Part shown: positions 23,458 to 59,168 of the stretch, in pieces
How the letters are laid out: every line of letters begins with the position of its first letter
Position numbering within the stretch: the stretch's first letter is position 1
Origin: an uncultured Erythrobacter sp.
GTDB taxonomy: Bacteria; Pseudomonadota; Alphaproteobacteria; Sphingomonadales; Sphingomonadaceae
NCBI GenBank assembly: GCA_947499095.1
Contig: CANMMR010000003.1
Span: 353,201 to 417,200 of the forward strand
Direction of reading: 5' to 3'
Length of the DNA: 64,000 nt
Notes under the pieces: generated by a model
The model's database searches: none
What the model was told of the DNA's origin: nothing
The model's input: the letters and a program-made list of their open reading frames with translations, nothing else
Program-made: the position numbers and the translations under genes

Positions 23458-23689
23458 GGTTTTTGTTGGGTTTTTGCTGGGTGCGCCTTCGACATCCGTC
23501 GAATGCTTGCGGCACCGGCCCACTCCCCCACCCGACCACCCATAGAATACCGTGCCGTGGGTGGTCGGGTGGGGGAGTGGGCCGGTACCGAAGGGAAGCA
23601 CGGATGTGCTGACCGCACGCAAACAATGACTTCGCGGGACGGAACAGCCGAGGTAAGCGCGGATGCGCTTCACGCACCCAACAAAAACC
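23458..23689 (-). repeat. Structured non-coding element C with 14-bp terminal inverted repeats and an 81-bp near-perfect palindrome
   Basis: GGTTTTTGTTGGGT (23458-23471) is the reverse complement of ACCCAACAAAAACC (23676-23689); palindrome 23510-23590; hairpins 23488-23503, 23597-23610, 23655-23670. Confidence 0.9.
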
Positions 23690-23695
23690 CCTCTC

Positions 23696-58363: not shown

Positions 58364-58548
58364 GCCAGGCTCCTTTGAAGGGGGTTGCGCGGCACGGGCA
58401 CGGACTTGCCCGCCGAGGGCGCCGCCCCCTTAGAAGGGGGGCATTGGGGAGTCAACATGAAGAGGGTGGGAAAAGGGGAGGTTTTGTGGGGTGCGGTCAG
58501 AAGATCCGTCCCGACCTTGCTATTCCGTCCCACAACCTTACCCGGAGT

Positions 58549-58763
58549 CTTTGTTGGGTGCGCTATCGACATCCGTCGATAGCTTGCGGCTCTGGCCCAC
58601 TCCCCCACCCGACCACCCATAGAATACCGTGCCGTGGGTGGTCGGGTGGGGGAGTGGGCCGGAGCCGAAGGGGAGCACGGATGTGCTTCCCGAACGCAAA
58701 TATGATCCCGCGTGGGCTGGTGCCGCTAAGGAAAGCGCGTATGCGCTTTCCGCACGCAACAAA
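58549..58763 (-). repeat. Structured non-coding element D, second copy of element C
   Basis: 69 bp (58594-58662) identical to 23517-23585; palindrome 58587-58667; hairpins 58562-58583, 58671-58691, 58730-58751; TTTGTTGGGTGCG/CGCACGCAACAAA ends. Confidence 0.9.
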
Positions 58764-59168
58764 TTACGGACAACGCGAATCCCGCATAGGCGGTGCACTC
58801 GTGCGGGTCTCCCAGCTACCGCTAGGCGCCTGATACTTCTCGCCCGGTGAAGTCGCCAGGATCGCCTGGCAGCCGGCGGTCAGCGCGTACTCTTCCAGCG
58901 TCGCATTGGTCGCCTTCGCGCGCTCGGCATAGACCGCACGGCGCTTGATATTGATATCGTTGACGAGGCGCTGGAGTTCCGGCGTGCTCGCACCGACGAT
59001 GCCGAGATAGCCGTCCATCTTCTCGCCCACCTGCCCGGCGGAACGCGCTGCGGCATAGGCGGGATCGCGCTGGGCGAAGGCCGGGGTCGCGAGGCCGCCG
59101 ATGGCGGTCGCGATCGCGACGCCTGCCAGCAGGCCCTTGGAAATTCGCTTGGTCATCATGTCACCCAT
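58764..59168 (-). CDS. YdbL family (DUF1318) periplasmic protein
   Basis: Signal peptide; DGYLGIVGASTPELQRLVNDINIKRRAVYAERA; next to YnbE-like and YdbH-like genes. Confidence 0.8.
   Translation of the reverse strand: MGDMMTKRISKGLLAGVAIATAIGGLATPAFAQRDPAYAAARSAGQVGEKMDGYLGIVGASTPELQRLVNDINIKRRAVYAERAKATNATLEEYALTAGCQAILATSPGEKYQAPSGSWETRTSAPPMRDSRCP

Follow-up and report, generated by a model that had tools for sequence, protein, structure and literature searches.

A mosaic, dispersed palindromic repeat family of intergenic sites in Erythrobacter and other Alphaproteobacteria that is apparently undescribed

The gap between dnaN and fabG of an uncultured Erythrobacter sp. contains a nested set of inverted repeats, which raises the question of what kind of element this is, either a mobile repeat resembling MITEs or REPINs or a structured 3'-UTR, as the original prediction had proposed, and of how far it extends beyond this locus. 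We analyzed it within a window of 64,000 nucleotides, this term denoting the whole stretch of DNA under study. Both genes lie on the minus strand, no gene is called in the gap between them, in agreement with the non-coding nature predicted for the element, and the stop codon of fabG lies within 6-7 nt of its end, again as anticipated. The whole compound element (positions 23458-23689) consists of a core unit plus an extra right half-unit, and is bounded by 14-bp perfect inverted ends, the left of which, GGTTTTTGTTGGGT (23458-23471), pairs at 14 of 14 positions with 23676-23689. The core unit starts with the left end GGGTTTTTGCTGGGTGCG (23468-23485), which is 94% complementary to 23673-23690 (alignment A1), followed by a left terminal hairpin on the minus strand (23485-23506) that belongs to stem class a and reads outwards as GCATTCGAC-GGAT-GTCGAAGGC. 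The 81-bp palindrome lies next to it, with 33-nt arms that are 97% complementary: the left arm is C-rich (23510-23542), the 15-nt loop TAGAATACCGTGCCG (23543-23557) is of a recurrent type found in both orientations, and the right arm (23558-23590) contains the core sequence GGGTGGYCGGGWGGGGGMGYGGG, which fits a G-quadruplex motif. The core unit is completed by its right terminal hairpin on the plus strand (23593-23614), of stem class c, which reads GGGAAGCAC-GGAT-GTGCTGACC and has a perfect inner stem of 5 bp, and by the right end CGCACGCAAACAAT (23614-23627; alignment A1). The extra half-unit (23635-23690, plus strand) contains a remnant of a palindrome arm, GGGACGGAACAGC, the hairpin AAGCGC-GGAT-GCGCTT (23655-23670) and the end CGCACCCAACAAAAACC. 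The three small hairpins are therefore present where they had been described and, when read outwards, share a C-GGAT-G loop that had been overlooked. RNA folding of the 232-bp region gives -152.8 kcal/mol, with z = -13 against dinucleotide shuffles.

The boundaries originally proposed for the unit, 23458-23689, did not survive comparison with the rest of the genome, for the sequence repeated elsewhere corresponds to about 23468-23627, the remainder being an additional half-unit of the same family. A genome search located the element at about 24 places in the 2.96-Mb genome, which rules out that only the two copies noticed initially exist. In the repeat unit of about 150 bp, the central palindrome lies between two 9-bp hairpins, which are bordered in turn by the end GTTTTTGTTGGGTGCG and, on the far side, by the inverted end CGCACGCAACAAAAAC. 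Comparison of the copies indicates that a full unit is formed by two inverted half-units sharing the central palindrome, each consisting of one arm of the palindrome, a hairpin of 9 bp closed by a GGAT loop and an end of the form CGCAC(C/G)CAACAAAAAC; half-units are also found standing alone, as at locus L042. The second copy in the window (58474-58765, with its core from 58547; locus L022) has half-units on both sides and looks like one element nested inside another. Neighbouring copies have only host genes between them, as judged from their translations, and so a composite transposon with cargo was rejected.

The start of a copy usually lies no more than tens of nucleotides from a stop codon. 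Genes were called with a simple script based on codon usage rather than with a trained gene finder; by these calls, the genes flanking the copies in this genome are on the same strand in 16 cases, convergent in three, divergent in four and undetermined in one, while gaps with the palindrome elsewhere are 28 tandem, 13 convergent and 8 divergent, the corresponding values for other gaps being 120, 41 and 54. Presence within the genus is patchy, from zero in some species to dozens of matches in others. At dnaN-fabG, the copy is shortened in the nearest relative (G002), decayed in another (G005) and absent in all further relatives for which this intergenic region was read. The rpsL-rpsG gap is occupied in five species and empty in one. 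The genes pdxJ and acpS, named from their translations, overlap as ATATGA in our genome and are separated in G002 by a unit that follows a TAG stop and precedes a GTG start; another insertion found only in G002 is also clean. These clean empty sites in relatives, together with others, show that the element has inserted between genes, with no consistent target duplication at the clean sites, even if part of this distribution could also result from spread by recombination or from vertical inheritance followed by loss. Since most of the copies tested in our genome are common to G002, the movement is mostly not recent. The copy between rpsL and rpsG, which is kept across several species and genera, may have a function. 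(The same gap contains a form of the palindrome with diverged stems in several genera of Erythrobacteraceae, at loci L149, L160 and L200, the copy of our genome being L036.)

Conservation is highest in the central palindrome, which extends well outside the genus, where the outer hairpins vary by lineage. Within the order, 73 of 401 genomes contain its 23-nt core, in a patchy distribution, whereas the reversed core, used as a control, gave no match in the genomes listed. The core is found also in records of Kiloniellales, Rhodospirillales, Hyphomicrobiales, Kordiimonadales, Minwuia and Acetobacteraceae which, even if only one arm was searched, usually show the other arm too, plus a GGATAC/GTATCC-like loop and the extension CCGGTGCCG. 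On both strands it fits the motif of a putative G-quadruplex. Six Kiloniellales loci (L180, L181, L188, L189, L207 and L216) have TTCCGCGTGAGCGGAAAACGCTCTAG-type ends around the palindrome, with the small hairpin on one side only, and in a Hyphomicrobiales MAG (L174, 87-323) a 107-bp unit is repeated three times in tandem, with a palindrome arm related to that of the element and a loop containing a TATAATCC motif. The core is also carried by 35 stretches from a virus collection (L262-L296). Several of these are prophage or GTA-like structural clusters, with genes for capsid, portal, tail and baseplate, in which the palindrome occupies various short gaps between co-directional genes. Phage records gave no match to the palindrome, and among plasmids it was found, alone, in three sphingomonad records.

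We then considered how the structure evolves. The consensus fold of 16 units from our genome has a closing stem formed by the inverted ends plus three hairpins, arranged as a four-way junction, and at least one compensatory double change is present at 24 of its 55 predicted pairs. The 80 outer hairpins collected from this genome and its relatives comprise 42 distinct stems; of their 720 pairs, 677 are of the Watson-Crick type and 18 are G-U. Some stems are chimeric, combining two types, and at one orthologous site (L034 vs. L110) two species have the left and right hairpins in opposite order; therefore, half-units seem to recombine. The outer stems fall into three classes, namely a (GCYWTCGAC), b (GGTCRGGAC and similar) and c (GGRAAGCGC and similar), and none of the 27 units having both hairpins carries the same class at its two ends, against an expected 8.9 (P ~3e-5, with classes defined on the same data and some sites orthologous). 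Homotypic ends are equally missing from the 11 copies of our genome, the set in which the rule was first noticed (P = 0.02), and from 16 copies of relatives (P = 0.001), or nine when only the sites not already represented are counted (P = 0.02). Bacterial cells destroy long perfect palindromes, or replicate them poorly, in a process involving SbcCD. Homotypic units are likely missing because each would be a single near-perfect palindrome, about 150-170 bp long, and suffer this fate; units of this kind, near-perfect palindromes of at least 150 nt, may also be lost during sequencing or assembly.

An alternative reading is that the element acts in mRNA: transcribed between cistrons or at 3' ends, it would form three hairpins upon a closing stem that block nucleases or set how strongly the two flanking genes are expressed relative to each other. 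Sites just after stop codons and inside operons, the retention of the rpsL-rpsG copy in several species and genera, the very stable fold and the four-way-junction consensus with compensatory changes would all fit this explanation. In the transcript sense, moreover, G-U outnumber A-C mismatches by 7 to 1 in the outer stems and by 25 to 16 in the central palindrome, underpowered counts that provide only a hint of RNA-level selection; the excess is weak and could stem from C to T mutation of the sense strand. Paired changes are expected to fit constraint on RNA or on DNA alike, for DNA hairpins predict them equally well and so does template-switch repair, which also maintains pairing in quasi-palindromes. 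The orthologous dnaN-fabG copies, however, are decayed (G005) or internally deleted (G002), and many relatives have no element at the same sites. An RNA role is weakly hinted at by the sequence data, and the originally suggested structured 3'-UTR would be compatible with the position of the element, but we regard this explanation as rather unlikely. Intrinsic transcription termination could account for strong hairpins located after genes, but no stem of the element is followed by a T-run and copies lie within operons, such as rpsL-rpsG and the structural operons of phages or GTA, rendering this function highly improbable. The likelihood of a binding or titration element for CsrA/RsmA, with ACGGAUGU in hairpin loops, is close to nil: the GGAT loops closed by C-G resemble the CsrA consensus, but a search that detected its controls showed no CsrA gene in the genome, which refutes CsrA titration here.

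The other alternatives concern the enzyme that may have moved the element. A REPIN mobilized by a RAYT tyrosine transposase would have, like the element, two inverted hairpin units dispersed in intergenic space, and one Y1 transposase locus is indeed present in our genome. This locus, however, is flanked by GGGGACAGTATACTTAATT repeats rather than by the palindromic element, a Y1 match is absent from six copy-rich relatives (G002, G005, G007, G014, G016 and G018), and no GTAG tag is found at the foot of the hairpins, the stems of which are flanked by CAAG/CGCAC (alignment A1). RAYT is consequently ruled out as the driver in the copy-rich relatives, all of which are without a Y1 gene, and a REPIN is very improbable overall. 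The repeats flanking the Y1 locus of our genome fit GGGGWSAS, the motif described for other tyrosine transposases of the TIR type (PMC3733652). At locus L045 (1855-2854; G000:C6:76354-77353) there are tandemly duplicated Y1 frames, each after TTCCGGGGACAGTATACTTAATTG(A/C)CC, which resemble the TIR-type tyrosine transposases of the same study. A MITE of a classical DDE IS with TA/YTAR targets, regenerating TAG when inserted at stop codons, could explain the terminal inverted repeats, the several junctions reading TAG then TTTTTG and a clean pair in which the empty site has TAA and the filled site TAG at both ends, compatible with TA/YTAR. Yet TAG stops beside palindromes are not significantly enriched across Alphaproteobacteria (23/87 vs. 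126/608, P = 0.26), so that the stop-codon target was rejected as a general rule, other clean sites show no TA duplication and no IS with matching ends was found; this origin appears decidedly unlikely. A scan of our genome with the TIR pattern, allowing one mismatch, produced 14 hits, most at known copies and two, C2:86031 and C4:70581, matching none. Apart from these two hits, neither the scan nor the clustering of neighbours revealed an autonomous IS with the same ends, although unannotated collections could hide one; in other taxa, no transposase recurs beside the palindrome, the recurring neighbours being phage or GTA structural genes and housekeeping genes. The original likeness to MITEs or REPINs therefore holds for a mobile-type, multicopy, dispersed element with inverted ends and empty sites, but not for a REPIN proper, given that the GTAG tag is missing, as is RAYT in copy-rich relatives; a link to MITEs in general is no more than possible, neither an autonomous partner nor a consistent target duplication having been seen.

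On balance, the element is probably a non-autonomous family of dispersed palindromic repeats of the REP/BIME kind. The best reading of its distribution is a family that was mobile in the past, is intergenic and mosaic and has mostly been tolerated at sites located 3' of genes. New copies of such repeats would arise by insertion via a trans-acting enzyme, after which selection would spare mainly intergenic ones, as a rule those directly behind a stop codon; exchange of half-units by recombination could then generate mosaic copies, the swapping of ends, stems of chimeric type and nested arrays. Units with like ends would be eliminated as long palindromes. A more specific proposal, which we consider speculative and improbable, is that a palindrome spread across the class is mobilized by an unrecognized enzyme that reads structure and needs two unlike end hairpins around a G-quadruplex-capable palindrome, with stems free to drift as long as they remain paired and the ends differ. 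Whatever the enzyme, a repeat family occurring across a whole bacterial class, also in essential operons, seems to be unnamed in the sources searched, and its rule of heterotypic end hairpins constitutes a measurable prediction, offering a natural test of the survival of long palindromes in bacterial chromosomes.

The absence of a named family, as originally supposed, agrees with the lack of any Rfam match above the gathering threshold, the best matches below it being hairpin hits to microRNA models. No description was found in the literature searched, with ISfinder and subscription papers lying outside the search, nor did the literature searches turn up a match to ISfinder families, RIME or ERIC. 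The element is apparently undescribed, either as a family of its own or as a new variant among repeats of the REP, BIME or MITE kind. BIMEs and ERIC-like elements of enterobacteria are likewise mosaics assembled from small palindromic modules; they lie mostly downstream of genes and are class-wide but patchy, yet as far as is known they are unrelated to the element in sequence. IS-derived MITEs are equally short and non-coding, with inverted ends and empty sites in relatives, but for the present element neither an autonomous parent nor a constant target duplication is seen. REPINs and GTAG REPs (PMC3116915; PMC3733652) similarly combine two inverted hairpin units into one larger intergenic structure of patchy copy number; the element differs from REPINs in the lack of a GTAG tag, in the lack of RAYT in copy-rich genomes, in its larger unit of about 150 nt and in having its strongest conservation in the central palindrome. 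Parallels are also shared with the CGTC REPs (Di Nocera 2013, PMC3733652), which are alphaproteobacterial, dispersed and arranged as inverted dimers, many of them heterodimers, with stems of 8-9 bp and loops of 4-5 nt (9 bp and GGAT in the element), and have no dedicated transposase known (PMC3733652). The element does not have their CGTC (TGTC/CCTC) tag or CCA tail, and membership fails on the tag (alignment A1 vs. PMC3733652); additionally, it possesses long terminal inverted ends and a third, far larger palindrome in the center that is conserved in sequence. It joins the CGTC REPs as an alphaproteobacterial palindrome without known transposase.
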